Source: Maribacter sedimenticola (GTDB lineage Bacteria > Bacteroidota > Bacteroidia > Flavobacteriales > Flavobacteriaceae). Taken from it: DNA of 64,000 nucleotides. Below the pieces are notes generated by a model. The model was given only the letters and a program-made list of their open reading frames with translations, did not search any database and was not told where the DNA came from. Position numbers and translations under genes: made by a program. The stretch spans positions 415,339 to 479,338 of the forward strand of contig NZ_FZNV01000002.1 in assembly GCF_900188415.1 (NCBI RefSeq), given 5' to 3'. Below, in pieces: positions 2,334-8,382 of the stretch (position 1 is the stretch's first letter; each line of letters starts with the position of its first letter).

Positions 2334-5186
2334 ATGCCGAAAAGAAAAGATTTAAACTCAATTTTATTAATAGGATCAGGCCCAATTGTAATAGGCCAAG
2401 CATGTGAATTTGATTATGCCGGTAGTCAGTCTTTGCGTTCATTACGTGAAGATGGTATAGAGACTATCTTAATTAATAGTAACCCGGCAACCATTATGAC
2501 GGATCCCTCTATGGCGGATCATGTATACTTAAAACCGTTGACCACAAAATCTATTGTTGAAATTTTAAAGGCCCATCCACAAATTGATGCGGTTTTGCCC
2601 ACCATGGGAGGTCAAACAGCATTGAACCTTTGTATAGAGGCCGATAAAAAGGGTATTTGGGAAGATTTTGGAGTAGAGTTGATCGGTGTGGATATCGACG
2701 CAATCAATATAACCGAAGATAGGGAGCAGTTTAGGGAACTTATGTTGAAAATAGGTGTAGGCATGGCACCACAGGCAACGGCAACCTCATTCTTGCAAGG
2801 AAAGGAAATTGCCCAGGAATTTGGATTTCCATTGGTAATTAGGGCTTCATATACACTTGGCGGTGCGGGAGCTTCTATTGTTTATAAGGCAGAGGATTTT
2901 GACGAACAGTTGAGTTATGGTCTGGAGATTTCACCTATTCATGAGGTAATGATCGATAAGGCCTTGATGGGATGGAAAGAATATGAGCTGGAACTATTAA
3001 GGGATAAGAACGATAACGTCGTAATTATCTGTGCTATAGAAAATATGGACCCAATGGGTATTCATACCGGAGATTCCATAACCGTGGCGCCGGCAATGAC
3101 CCTATCTGATAAAACATACCAAAAAATGCGTGATATGGCCATTCATATGATGCGCAGTATTGGAGATTTTGAAGGAGGGTGTAATGTGCAGTTTGCCGTT
3201 AGTCCAGATGAGAAAGAAGATATAATAGCAATTGAGATTAACCCACGTGTATCAAGGTCATCGGCATTGGCATCCAAAGCTACTGGGTATCCTATAGCAA
3301 AGGTTGCAACTAAATTGGCAATAGGTTATACGCTTGATGAATTGGATAATCAGATTACAAAGTCTACATCGGCATTGTTTGAGCCAACCTTGGATTATGT
3401 GATCGTAAAAATACCTCGTTGGAATTTTGATAAGTTTGAAGGTTCGGACAGGACATTAGGGCTTCAGATGAAATCCGTAGGGGAAGTTATGGGTATTGGG
3501 CGTTCATTTCAAGAGGCCTTACATAAAGCAACTCAATCCCTAGAAATAAAACGAAATGGATTGGGAGCGGATGGTAAAGGCTATAAAAATTATGAGCAGA
3601 TCATCAGTAAATTGACCATTCCAAGTTGGGACCGTGTTTTCGTGATCTATGACGCCATTCAAATAGGAATTCCGTTGAGTAGGATTCATGAAATCACCAA
3701 AATAGATATGTGGTTCCTAAAGCAATATGAGGAGCTTCATTTCTTGGAAAAGGAAATATCCAAATACACCATTGCAACTTTATCTAAGGATTTGTTGTTA
3801 GAGGCCAAGCAAAAAGGCTTTGCTGATAGACAAATTGCCCATATGTTGGATTGTTATGAAAGCGAAGTTTATAACAAACGTACCGAACTGAACATCAACA
3901 GGGTGTATAAACTGGTAGATACCTGTGCCGCAGAATTTAAGGCAATGACACCGTATTACTATTCTACTTTTGAAGCAGAAATTGAAACTGCTGAAGGTGC
4001 CCGTTATGTGGAGAATGATAGTATAGTTACCGATAAAAAGAAAATTGTAGTTCTAGGTTCGGGACCTAACCGTATTGGTCAGGGTATAGAATTCGATTAC
4101 TGTTGTGTACATGGTGTTTTGGCCGCGGCAGAATGTGGTTATGAGACTATAATGATCAATTGTAATCCAGAAACGGTTTCTACCGATTTTGATACTGCGG
4201 ACAAGCTATATTTTGAGCCTGTATTCTGGGAACATATTTATGATATTATCCGTCATGAAAAACCAGAAGGTGTAATTGTTCAGTTAGGTGGTCAAACCGC
4301 ATTGAAATTGGCGGAGAAATTATCCAAATACGGTATTAAGATCATAGGTACTAGTTTTGAATCGCTAGATTTGGCAGAGGATAGGGGAAGCTTCTCAGAG
4401 CTGTTAAAAGAAAATGATATTCCTTTTCCAAAATTTGGGGTAGCAGAAACGGCAGATGAAGCATTGACCCTTTCAGAAGAATTGGATTTTCCATTATTGG
4501 TAAGACCCTCTTACGTATTGGGTGGTCAGGGAATGAAAATTGTAATCAACAAAGAAGAATTGGAAGAGCATGTTGTGGACCTTCTTCGCAAAATACCAAA
4601 TAATAAATTATTGCTTGACCATTATCTAGACGGTGCAATAGAAGCAGAGGCAGATGCCATTTGTGATGGGGAAGATGTTTACATTATTGGTATAATGGAG
4701 CATATTGAGCCTTGCGGTATACATTCCGGGGATTCCAATGCTACATTGCCACCTTTTAACTTAGGGGAATTGGTAATGCAGCAGATAAAAGATCATACCA
4801 AGAAAATTGCATTGGCATTGAATACAGTAGGTCTAATCAATATACAATTTGCTATCAAGGATGAGGTAGTCTACATTATTGAAGCCAATCCAAGAGCATC
4901 ACGTACGGTGCCGTTTATAGCAAAAGCGTATAAGGAACCTTATGTAAATTACGCTACCAAGGTAATGTTGGGAGAAAAAAAGGTGAAGGATTTCACATTT
5001 AATCCACAATTGGAAGGTTTTGCAATTAAACAACCGGTATTCTCCTTCAATAAATTCCCTAATGTCAATAAGAATTTGGGGCCTGAAATGAAGAGTACAG
5101 GTGAAAGTATATTATTTATAGATAGTCTTAAGGACGATGAGTTTTACAATCTTTACGCAAGGCGTAAAATGTATTTAAGTAAATAA
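2334..5186 (+). CDS. carB: carbamoyl-phosphate synthase large subunit
   Basis: The large subunit makes carbamoyl phosphate from ammonia, bicarbonate and two ATP for arginine and pyrimidine synthesis. It shows the characteristic duplicated ATP-grasp architecture. The first half has GSGPIVIGQACEFDYAG and MGGQTALN; the second half, from about residue 565, has GSGPNRIGQGIEFDYCC and LGGQTALK. The metal-binding EINPR and EANPR motifs are present in the two halves. At 950 residues it is about 120 shorter than the E. coli enzyme and stops after the second synthetase domain, so the C-terminal MGS-like allosteric domain is missing. The same length is usual in flavobacteria as far as I recall. carA is not in the window. 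Confidence 0.97.
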   Translation: MPKRKDLNSILLIGSGPIVIGQACEFDYAGSQSLRSLREDGIETILINSNPATIMTDPSMADHVYLKPLTTKSIVEILKAHPQIDAVLPTMGGQTALNLCIEADKKGIWEDFGVELIGVDIDAINITEDREQFRELMLKIGVGMAPQATATSFLQGKEIAQEFGFPLVIRASYTLGGAGASIVYKAEDFDEQLSYGLEISPIHEVMIDKALMGWKEYELELLRDKNDNVVIICAIENMDPMGIHTGDSITVAPAMTLSDKTYQKMRDMAIHMMRSIGDFEGGCNVQFAVSPDEKEDIIAIEINPRVSRSSALASKATGYPIAKVATKLAIGYTLDELDNQITKSTSALFEPTLDYVIVKIPRWNFDKFEGSDRTLGLQMKSVGEVMGIGRSFQEALHKATQSLEIKRNGLGADGKGYKNYEQIISKLTIPSWDRVFVIYDAIQIGIPLSRIHEITKIDMWFLKQYEELHFLEKEISKYTIATLSKDLLLEAKQKGFADRQIAHMLDCYESEVYNKRTELNINRVYKLVDTCAAEFKAMTPYYYSTFEAEIETAEGARYVENDSIVTDKKKIVVLGSGPNRIGQGIEFDYCCVHGVLAAAECGYETIMINCNPETVSTDFDTADKLYFEPVFWEHIYDIIRHEKPEGVIVQLGGQTALKLAEKLSKYGIKIIGTSFESLDLAEDRGSFSELLKENDIPFPKFGVAETADEALTLSEELDFPLLVRPSYVLGGQGMKIVINKEELEEHVVDLLRKIPNNKLLLDHYLDGAIEAEADAICDGEDVYIIGIMEHIEPCGIHSGDSNATLPPFNLGELVMQQIKDHTKKIALALNTVGLINIQFAIKDEVVYIIEANPRASRTVPFIAKAYKEPYVNYATKVMLGEKKVKDFTFNPQLEGFAIKQPVFSFNKFPNVNKNLGPEMKSTGESILFIDSLKDDEFYNLYARRKMYLSK

Positions 5187-5405: not shown

Positions 5406-6701
5406 ATGGGCAAAAAAGTTCTTTTAGCTGTAATTATTGTGATAGCACTTTTTGTGGGTTTCACGTATTGGTCGCTTTCCAGTACTTCTAAAACCTTCGA
5501 CACTTGTGAAATTGTTGGTCGTGAAGAAATGAAACAAATCAATTTCAGGGAATTTGATTCTGTTTTGGTTGCGGCCAGCACACTTTATGAAGGCAATACT
5601 ATTAAGAACATAATGCAAGGAGAGCAATATAGAAAAGCGTGGTCAACTCCAGTAAAAGTACCTATCGTCTTTTTGGATACCTTACTTGACGGGGTACATA
5701 TTTTAGAAGAGGGTGGGGGTCACCAGACACATTCCTTAAAGTTGAAAACAGCAGATGGTACATTGCTTACCCTTAGAAGTGTTAGTAAAGATCCCTCGCC
5801 ATTAATTCCTAAAGTGGCAGAATCACTTGGATTGGAAAATATAGTGGTGGATGGTATTTCTGCACAACATCCTTATGCAGCCTTGGTGGTCGCCAAATTA
5901 GCTGATGCGGCAAAAATATTAAATACCAGACCACGGTTGGTCTTTGTTCCGGAACAGGACTTTTTGGGCAATTATAACGAGAAATTCGGTAACCGTTTAT
6001 TTCTATTGGAATATGAGACAGAAGGAAACGCACAGTGGCTAGGAATAAATGCGGTAAGGACATTGCTTGATACTGAGGATCTACAAGAACTTAAATTTGA
6101 GAAAAATAAAAATGTAATTGTTGATCATAGCGCCTTGGTAAGGGCCAGGTTGTTCGATCTGCTTATTGGTGATTGGGACCGCCATTCCAAACAGTGGGGG
6201 TGGGCAATCAAGGATAGTTCAGAGATGAAGGTAGCAATTCCCATGCCCTGTGATCGAGATAATGCGTTCTTTAATCTTGAGGGCGTACTCCCCACATTAA
6301 TTTCCAATAATACATTTCTGCCGGAGGTTCAATCATTTGAAAGTGATATTGATTTTTTAAAAGGTTTGGTTTCTCCCTTTGATATTTATTTTATGAGAGA
6401 TTTTGATGAAAATATTTTTGAGGTGGAAGCTAGGGAACTGCAAGTATTATTATCAGATGAGGAAATTACCAAGGCATTTGCGGTATGGCCTAAAGAAATT
6501 CGTGAATTGGATGCCGATAATTTGATTGGTAAAATAAAGCAAAGAAGGAATGATTTGGTAACCTATGCCAAGGAATTTCATGATGTTGTAGCTTCCGCAG
6601 AACCAGTAACCGAACCATTAAACGGCTCAGAGGATTTAAAGTTGAATGACACCCAATTGGCCTGTTTCAGTTGTTCGGGGAACGATAACAATGAAAGATA
6701 A
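5406..6701 (+). CDS. membrane-anchored protein with a kinase-like (HipA/FAM20/CotH-related) signature
   Basis: This 431-residue protein has one N-terminal membrane helix (KVLLAVIIVIALFVGFTYW), so the body is probably in the periplasm. Two motifs stand out: LLIGDWDRHSKQWGW at about residues 250-265 and PCDRDNAFF at about 281-289. The pairing of GDxDRHxxQW with a later PxDRDxAFF resembles the catalytic loop and metal-binding acid of HipA/PI4K-like, FAM20 and CotH kinases. It also resembles the C-terminal domain of some Bacteroidota metallophosphoesterase lipoproteins, but no phosphoesterase domain is present here. The tail ends in a Cys pair (CFSCSG). The gene is followed 52 bases later by the HD-PycTM gene. 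The kinase relationship is inferred from motifs only and the substrate is unknown. Confidence 0.5.
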   Translation: MGKKVLLAVIIVIALFVGFTYWSLSSTSKTFDTCEIVGREEMKQINFREFDSVLVAASTLYEGNTIKNIMQGEQYRKAWSTPVKVPIVFLDTLLDGVHILEEGGGHQTHSLKLKTADGTLLTLRSVSKDPSPLIPKVAESLGLENIVVDGISAQHPYAALVVAKLADAAKILNTRPRLVFVPEQDFLGNYNEKFGNRLFLLEYETEGNAQWLGINAVRTLLDTEDLQELKFEKNKNVIVDHSALVRARLFDLLIGDWDRHSKQWGWAIKDSSEMKVAIPMPCDRDNAFFNLEGVLPTLISNNTFLPEVQSFESDIDFLKGLVSPFDIYFMRDFDENIFEVEARELQVLLSDEEITKAFAVWPKEIRELDADNLIGKIKQRRNDLVTYAKEFHDVVASAEPVTEPLNGSEDLKLNDTQLACFSCSGNDNNER

Positions 6702-6753: not shown

Positions 6754-7971
6754 ATGAATTCTACCCATGTAAAAAAAGCGGCCAAATATGTAAAAATTTT
6801 GTTAGCGGAACAATTGAATAAAAATTTTCTTTTTCATAGTCAAGGGTATACCAATAAGTTGGTGAAAAAAGCGGAATTGATTTTAGAGGAGGATAACACC
6901 CAAATAGATCAAAATCTTGTATTGGTCGCAATTTGGTTTTTAAATGCAGGATACGCTAAAGATTATGATGGGCACATTACAGAAAGTGTACAATTGGCCG
7001 TAGATTTTTTAAGGCAAGAAGAAGTTGCGGAAGAAGAAATAGATCAAGTTGGTAAGCTTATTGAAAAAGCTTGGTCCAATGAACATCCTACAACTAATGA
7101 GGAAGCATTGGTTAAGGATATCAATACCTATTTTTATGCTTCTAATGATTTTGAGGAACTTTTACAATTATTGCGTTTAGAACTTCAAAATTTTGAGAAA
7201 AAAGTTCCGGATCTGCATACATGGCGAATGGAATATGTGGAAAAACTTAGGGTTCAGCATACGTTCTATACGGATTATGCCAAGGAAAATTGGCAGGAAA
7301 AAAAGGAAGATAATATGCTTTCCTTAATTTCTTCCATCCAAAAAGCGGAAAAGAATTATAAAAAAGAGACGCTAAAGGCAAAATTGAAAGATGAGAGTCC
7401 TCAACGTGCTATACAATCCCTTTACCGTATTGAATTAAGAAACCATATTAAATTAAGTGATATAGCAGATACAAAAGCAAATATTTTACTATCGGTCAAT
7501 GCTATTATCATTTCATTGTTATTGGCCAATCTTTTGCCCAAGTTGGATGCGCCCTCCAATTCATATTTAATTTACCCAACAGTAATCTTTATATTGTTTA
7601 GTATTGCTTCTATGATTATGTCCGTTTTAGCAACCAGACCCAAAGTGGATAACGCTAATCTTATGGAAGATGATATAAAGAAAAAGGATACCAATTTTTT
7701 ATTTTTTGGCAACTTTCATTCAATGGATCTTTCAGATTTTAAATCAAAAATAAGGAACATAATAAAAAATAAAGAGTCAATATATGACTCCTTGACCATA
7801 GATCTTTACTATTTAGGAAAAGTACTTCAGCACAAGTATAGATTGCTACGTTGGACCTATACCATATTTTTGGTTGGCGTTATATTATCCGTAATTGCTT
7901 TCGGCTTCGCTTTAAAATATTTTGGTATGGAGGATGAACTGTTAGATGCCGTCACTCCGGCAGTACAATAG
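6754..7971 (+). CDS. degenerate HD domain fused to Pycsar effector-type (PycTM) membrane domain
   Basis: The protein has 405 residues. Residues 1-140 align by eye with an HD phosphohydrolase domain, but the metal ligands are mostly lost: Tyr32 replaces the first His, Leu63-Asn64 replaces the HD pair, while His74 (GYAKDYDGH) remains. From about residue 215 comes the hallmark of the Pycsar effector family (DUF5706): AIQSLYRIELRNHIKLSDIAD, then KANILLSVNAIIISLLL. It has two central membrane helices (about 243-262 and 270-292) and a C-terminal helix (about 368-390). In Pycsar systems such proteins damage the membrane when a cyclase makes cCMP or cUMP. No cyclase gene is in the window, so a defence role is unproven. 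Confidence 0.75.
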   Translation: MNSTHVKKAAKYVKILLAEQLNKNFLFHSQGYTNKLVKKAELILEEDNTQIDQNLVLVAIWFLNAGYAKDYDGHITESVQLAVDFLRQEEVAEEEIDQVGKLIEKAWSNEHPTTNEEALVKDINTYFYASNDFEELLQLLRLELQNFEKKVPDLHTWRMEYVEKLRVQHTFYTDYAKENWQEKKEDNMLSLISSIQKAEKNYKKETLKAKLKDESPQRAIQSLYRIELRNHIKLSDIADTKANILLSVNAIIISLLLANLLPKLDAPSNSYLIYPTVIFILFSIASMIMSVLATRPKVDNANLMEDDIKKKDTNFLFFGNFHSMDLSDFKSKIRNIIKNKESIYDSLTIDLYYLGKVLQHKYRLLRWTYTIFLVGVILSVIAFGFALKYFGMEDELLDAVTPAVQ

Positions 7972-8010: not shown

Positions 8011-8382
8011 TTAATTGAACCAGACCGCATATTTTTTTCTGCGCAATTCCAATGCCAATTGTTTTTCCATCTTTAACGCCTCTACTTTAGTTGGTATTAA
8101 TGGAATATGATTGTATAGGCTTCCCCTAAGATAGAGCCCATATTTTCTAACGATGGATGATGAAATATTAATTCCTTTTTTACTTAATGTGCCATTTTTA
8201 TGTTGTTCAAAACGTTCTTTGGGTGTTTTGCTGGTCATACCTACATACAAACATTCCAGGACACCATTAAATTGAGGGTTGGCCTCCCTGAACTTTTTGT
8301 TTTCAGTATATATTTTCTTGGATAGTTCAATAACATAAATGGAATATTGTGCTTTTGCCATACCTAATGGAGTGAATATCAT
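8011..8382 (-). CDS. GIY-YIG nuclease superfamily-like protein
   Basis: This is a small protein of 123 residues, or 116 if the second ATG (8361) is used, which would give MAKAQYSIYVIEL. The pattern IYVIEL, then LYVGMTSKTPKERFEQHKNG, then VRKYG, and finally an E in EALKMEKQLALELRRKKY is that of the GIY-YIG fold. In that fold, IY and YVG form the core strand pair, Arg of ERF is catalytic, and a downstream Glu binds metal. It is a stand-alone domain with no UvrC or DNA-binding extension. It may act on nucleic acid, but the target is unknown. It converges on the HD-PycTM gene, with a 39-base gap. Confidence 0.65.
   Translation of the reverse strand: MIFTPLGMAKAQYSIYVIELSKKIYTENKKFREANPQFNGVLECLYVGMTSKTPKERFEQHKNGTLSKKGINISSSIVRKYGLYLRGSLYNHIPLIPTKVEALKMEKQLALELRRKKYAVWFN

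Follow-up and report, generated by a model that had tools for sequence, protein, structure and literature searches.

The 64,000-nucleotide stretch of the Maribacter sedimenticola genome analysed here (contig NZ_FZNV01000002.1, positions 415,339 to 479,338 of the forward strand; hereafter the window) carries a gene whose product joins an N-terminal HD-like domain, through a charged helical linker, to a C-terminal membrane part of the PycTM family (Table 1). An earlier note, made from the letters of the window, had described this protein as an orphan Pycsar-type membrane effector fused to a metal-ligand-poor HD domain. The domain assignments of that note were borne out. Specifically, the PycTM/DUF5706 profile PF18967 matches the window protein at E=4e-31, with 108 bits compared to a curated cut-off of 27.2, which places it within the family, and PADLOC profiles also match the PycTM half; a search of NCBIfam returned nothing above cut-off. 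In the predicted structure, the N-terminal part shows an HD-type helical core and compares as an HD domain, so that by fold it belongs to the HD superfamily. In addition, the alignment of 134 homologues confirms that the residues singled out by the note, Tyr32 and Leu63-Asn64, represent the changes H32Y, H63L and D64N. D122 is retained, and the H...HD...D metal-ligand set of HD phosphohydrolases is incomplete. Sequence searches of solved structures gave nothing useful, either for the HD-PycTM protein or for the short kinase described below.

Table 1. Features of the HD-like/PycTM locus, numbered from the first nucleotide of the window.
Feature	Position	Strand	Basis or remark
HD-like/PycTM membrane protein, 405 aa	6754..7971	+	gene confirmed; subject of the finding
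HD-like domain, about residues 1-135	6754..7158	+	alignment of 134 homologues and fold
Metal-site losses: Y32; L63-N64	6847-6849; 6940-6945	+	alignment of 134 homologues
Metal-site residues kept: H28; H74; D122	6835-6837; 6973-6975; 7117-7119	+	same alignment of 134 homologues
Charged helical linker, residues 136-227	7159..7434	+	alignment; low-confidence model
PycTM half, residues 228-405	7435..7968	+	profile match, hydropathy
Hydrophobic segments in PycTM half: residues 244-262; 276-294; 369-387	7483-7539; 7579-7635; 7858-7914	+	hydropathy
Short kinase-like partner, 431 aa	5406..6701	+	52 bp upstream of the HD-like gene
carB, carbamoyl-phosphate synthase large chain	2334..5186	+	syntenic flank in Maribacter, outside the module
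GIY-YIG domain protein	8011..8382	-	downstream syntenic flank in Maribacter, outside the module

The term 'orphan' did not hold, as a gene for a short kinase-like protein lies immediately upstream and adjoins the HD-like gene in all 17 members of the clade defined below. Its product starts with a hydrophobic N-terminal anchor (residues 5-23), followed by a CotH/PI4K-like fold in which the catalytic-type motifs DWDRH (6171-6185) and DRD (6252-6260) are intact; we take their acidic residues to be catalytic. With both the fold and these residues present, the short partner is a predicted CotH/PI4K-like kinase, at approximately 10% sequence identity to the CotH spore-coat kinase, PI4K type II, CtkA and HipA.

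Relatives of the window protein were found in 146 of 199 genomes of the family (E<=0.001; some of the matches are partial or weak), including all 36 Maribacter genomes. The motif survey covered 100 of the at least 144 near-full-length matches outside the window's own genome, together with the genus loci; none of the other 44 matches exceeds 45% identity to the window protein. The complete HHHDHD set (H28, H32, H63, D64, H74 and D122) is present in 117 of the 134 distinct proteins and absent in 17. Among these 17 window-type proteins, H63 and D64 are lost in every case and H32 in 16, while H28 and H74 are kept in 16 and D122 in all. A tree of 73 chosen HD-PycTM rows, built on columns outside the HD domain, placed the 17 in one clade (support 100/100) on a stem of about one change per site; the loss thus had one origin, and the 17 proteins do not represent independent events.

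The residues that survive could be thought to sustain catalysis through a rearranged metal site that uses H28, H74 and D122 and, in most members, a His at position 64, which is found in 12 of the 17. We regard this as highly improbable, given that at position 64 the window protein has Asn, three other members have Tyr and one has Phe, a variability which means that no new ligand set is conserved.

The window's genome contains three fused HD-PycTM copies, namely the window gene and two with an intact HD domain (L047 and L048; genomes and loci are cited by G and L numbers). Intact fused proteins are about 38-51% identical to the window protein and share its domain order over the full length, an architecture common to the intact HD-PycTM proteins of Bacteroidota. 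All the 17 genomes of the clade also hold an intact copy: L056 in G172, L062 in G189 and, in the other 14 genomes, 20 out of 20 further copies fetched. In conclusion, judged from alignment and tree, the dead HD domain is derived, confined to one paralogue clade, and no general property of the family.

Mean pairwise identity among the 15 Maribacter members of the clade is 60% over residues 1-135, 84% over the linker and 92% over residues 228-405, compared to 61-65%, 70-76% and 83-86% for the same regions in the intact Maribacter paralogues (11 and 10 rows). The ratio of nonsynonymous to synonymous substitution rates (dN/dS) in the 8 closest clade pairs is 0.14-0.26 for the dead HD domain; the linker has 0.03-0.12 and the PycTM half 0.02-0.05. 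The HD domains of intact paralogues gave 0.06-0.10 (8 pairs with defined dS, several of them with dS above 1), so that the value for the dead domain is about twofold higher. Being higher yet still low, it indicates a domain under relaxed but continuing purifying selection. The same figures bear on the explanation that the HD-like domain binds nothing and is a decaying structural or dimerisation leftover, with the PycTM half and the kinase doing the work. The gap in identity between the HD part and the PycTM half, the doubled dN/dS and the replacement of the lost residues by several different ones all agree with decay, but the ratio itself is still low, the length and fold of the domain are kept, and H28, H74 and D122 are held almost throughout the clade; overall, we consider this explanation rather unlikely.

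A different gene accompanies the intact relatives. In 86 of the 117 intact cases, a gene lies within 400 bp which encodes a lipoprotein-like protein in which a metallophosphoesterase (MPE), a CotH/PI4K-like kinase and an Omp85 barrel are fused, and this proximity recurs across Bacteroidota, in well over a hundred sampled genomes. The earlier note had stated that a conserved association with some other system would speak against its reading, and the tie of the intact relatives to the MPE-kinase-Omp85 gene, seen both within the family and throughout Bacteroidota, is such an association. The usual Flavobacteriaceae form is an intact HD and PycTM protein beside this fusion, and the window copy is an extra paralogue. 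Unlike the 117 intact proteins, which have the full HHHDHD set and mostly adjoin the fusion gene, the window protein has a partner consisting of the kinase-like part only, without MPE and barrel. Indeed, the nearest partner-type gene is the short kinase for exactly the 17 proteins devoid of the metal site; at L062, which has an intact HD domain, a short kinase is also found, but approximately 4.7 kb away and beyond a full partner.

From their domain pair, the full-length partners probably belong to the Omp85 'Metallo' subfamily (Heinz and Lithgow 2014), which, in the sections of that paper available to us, likewise pairs PF00149 with an Omp85 barrel (PMC4104836); the window's partner, unlike this subfamily, has neither MPE nor barrel. 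The same sections name PF00149 a metalloprotease domain, as opposed to the calcineurin-like phosphoesterase of Pfam, and a word search of the available main text returned 'kinase' 0 times, the kinase-like middle domain not being named there. Word searches for 'phosphoesterase', 'kinase' and 'metallophosph' in the available text of papers on the Bacteroidota BAM and TamL (PMC12611786, PMC12045153) were equally negative. No description of the gene pair or of the module was found in the open-licence literature, a weak negative given that scope.

The fusion partners themselves come in more than one state. For this comparison, the residues of the MPE motifs were taken to be ligands and those of the kinase motifs to be catalytic, from knowledge of the folds. 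All seven MPE ligand columns checked are kept in 77 of 81 complete first-type partners, and the 4 exceptions sit in tandem loci in which the second copy has these columns intact. The second intact-HD copy of the window's own genome has a partner (L048:3623-7351) with broken MPE motifs, GGLG, GNNEW and GHEE versus the intact GDAG, GNHDW and GHEH. Twenty regions with this second type of partner were fetched (L223-L242), of which 15 contained a complete partner and one an incomplete partner, while 4 missed it; the ligand losses are identical in all the 15 complete partners, and in 17 out of 17 when L048 and L057 are included. The HD motif of the adjacent HD-PycTM protein is intact in the 13 of the 15 checked (without G210 and G213). 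By sequence, then, pseudo-phosphoesterases recur: the HD site is lost in one clade and the MPE site in another, separately and in extra copies.

Besides the window's own, 25 short kinases of 45-55% identity were found in 24 of the 199 family genomes. Two of them belong to the pairs in G172 and G189; stretches were fetched for 20 of the other 23 (without G101, G007 and G198), and in all 20 the short kinase is solo within about 4 kb, including one (L261) in G189, which has a paired copy too. In the kinase tree, the 17 paired short kinases are nested among the solos, and the fork uniting them with three solos has a support of 92/83. Both observations indicate that the short kinase is older than the pairing, that is, a partner swap; for the same reasons we rejected the idea of a joint loss, in which the MPE and barrel of the kinase partner disappeared together with the HD site. 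The economical account of these sequences would be that an HD-PycTM duplicate landed beside an existing short kinase, that its HD site was lost and that some lineages subsequently lost the pairing. In G172, the gene order is unlike that of other clade members, so that the adjacency either survived a rearrangement or arose twice. As a side observation, solo short kinases of this CotH/PI4K-like kind, with an N-terminal anchor, occur in many Flavobacteriaceae, and 5-6 of the 20 fetched (L243-L262) have menD-like and thioesterase-like genes nearby, as guessed from the first residues of these.

A full window-type copy is present in 15 of the 36 Maribacter genomes, with a piece at a contig edge in G222 and a relic only in G216; in the remaining 19, there was no window-type match among the matches listed. 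The relic (L199:8880-9086) corresponds to residues 335-403, includes a stop and lies between carB and the GIY-YIG gene. The order LTG-TPR-carB-short kinase-HD-like-GIY is common to four loci (L036, L040, L201 and L202), and the GIY gene is downstream in 14 of 14 genus loci (L154-L167). A link of the pair to pyrimidine nucleotides through carB was rejected: the short kinase starts 219 bp after carB in the window but about 1.9 kb after it in the four relatives that were read, and in G189 and G172 the neighbours are different.

Defence genes are expected to show a patchy, mobile distribution. The window gene is syntenic in Maribacter and its relatives are spread over most of the family, yet the window type is confined to fewer than half of the genus genomes. 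No phage record matched the window protein, and no relative was found on viral contigs with a single-protein query, which finds close relatives only. On plasmids there were two distant matches (32% and 30% identical), whose replicons, 859 and 141 kb long, are predicted to be non-mobilizable. On these grounds, a phage or plasmid origin was rejected.

The likeness to the Pycsar effector PycTM resides in the C-terminal half of the window protein. In contrast to a Pycsar PycTM, which is encoded with its cyclase, the window gene has no adjacent cyclase; its product begins with a pseudo-HD domain, and its neighbour is kinase-like. The genome contains five class III cyclase matches, all outside the window, in agreement with the earlier note, which had seen no cyclase in the 64 kb; SMODS (CD-NTase) matches are absent from the genome, and a CD-NTase partner was rejected. 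About 120 kb from the window gene, an operon-like set (L046:7202-11826, G000:C11) reads, in order, sensor kinase, receiver, receiver-cyclase, HD protein (202 aa, motif intact by eye) and PycTM protein (197 aa), and its receiver-class III cyclase matches PycC at 7e-26. In G202, G206, G229 and G230 (L191-L194) a PycTM gene comes immediately after the same cyclase (94-98% identical), the HD gene being absent. The gene order of the cyclase-HD-PycTM set is the best clue that HD and PycTM may act on the cyclase product, at least there. By tblastn with the five cyclases of the window's genome, no cyclase was found within about 5.5 kb of 100 family loci, although a divergent one could escape this search. 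As an additional observation, a further PycTM-only gene, of about 195-217 aa, occurs in seven Maribacter genomes fetched for it (L183-L189); no cyclase was noticed near it in L184, L188 and L189, where only the first residues of the open reading frames were read.

The window protein might thus be pictured as a Pycsar-type effector acting in trans, its dead HD domain binding a cyclic nucleotide made on infection by a distant cyclase and its PycTM half then breaking the membrane. The Pfam and PADLOC matches, the five cyclases with a PycC-like one among them beside HD and PycTM genes, and the patchiness of the window type lend this picture some substance. However, it has to be set against the synteny of the gene where present in Maribacter, the phage, viral-contig and plasmid results, the cyclase-free surroundings of the 100 family loci and the fact that the cyclase operon has a PycTM (and HD) gene of its own; we judge it improbable. 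As an orphan Pycsar effector, the window gene is not supported by these comparisons, and, of the two roles weighed in the earlier note, the housekeeping or stress role appears likelier than phage defence.

As anatomy and history, the comparisons support a pseudo-HD paralogue that derives from a conserved gene pair of Bacteroidota and has exchanged its partner. As to function, our preferred proposal, put forward tentatively, is that the window gene encodes a non-hydrolysing regulatory paralogue, with a swapped partner, of a Bacteroidota cell-envelope module. The HD-like domain would no longer hydrolyse the ligand that its intact sisters act on, be it a nucleotide or another phospho-ligand; it may still bind that ligand or a partner, and so gate the PycTM membrane part by setting its state. 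Three hydrophobic segments, with more Lys and Arg on the presumed inner sides, suggest that the HD-like domain is cytoplasmic, and the one N-terminal anchor of the kinase, preceded by two Lys, suggests that the kinase domain is periplasmic. The kinase domain would work there in concert with the HD-like/PycTM protein, and the pair would tune envelope physiology alongside the intact copies and not act as a stand-alone suicide effector. A precedent for a ligand-held small membrane effector is the 2TMbeta protein of Panoptes mCpol-2TMbeta, which the available parts of two reports (PMC12657230, PMC12657218) describe as nucleotide-controlled and held off by its ligand; the likeness is to the proposed working of the window protein, and 2TMbeta, unlike it, carries a beta-barrel sensor.

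Several points weigh against the regulatory-paralogue proposal. The full copy in just 15 of 36 Maribacter genomes, with a relic in one, means that the pair is dispensable, and the 20 solo loci mean that the short kinase does not require the HD-like protein. Kinase motifs are altered in two full first-type partners (L136 and L152), showing that conservation of the kinase has exceptions within the module, and the PycTM half stays recognisable to defence-system profiles. Outside the HD part the full-length model is of poor quality (mean pLDDT 61), and it is also weak at residues 21-30, where H28 sits. Finally, the topology is read from hydropathy only, and ligand binding, activity and interaction of the window pair are predictions from the two sequences.

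With slightly less confidence still, we can envisage that HD-PycTM and MPE-kinase-Omp85 together form a two-membrane signalling module found throughout Bacteroidota, that PycTM is chiefly its inner-membrane half, and that phage defence shares it or has borrowed it. Such a module would repeatedly breed pseudo-phosphoesterase copies, with a dead MPE or a dead HD, that serve as regulatory subunits beside the catalytic copies. Of these, the window gene would be the most extreme case seen, with a dead HD and an inner-membrane kinase in place of the outer-membrane partner. A domain named for phage defence but found near an outer-membrane-type kinase/phosphoesterase fusion in so many Bacteroidota genomes calls for caution in calling lone PycTM genes defence genes. 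In addition, the link between HD-PycTM and MPE-kinase-Omp85 offers a testable route to the ligand of PycTM, and the separate losses of HD and MPE sites in extra copies provide a clean system for the role of pseudoenzymes in bacterial envelope signalling.

A last observation concerns tandem MPE-kinase-Omp85 genes, seen at L105, L124, L143 and L145 (also at L136), one with broken MPE motifs and the other without; at L136, the copy with the intact MPE carries an altered kinase motif.
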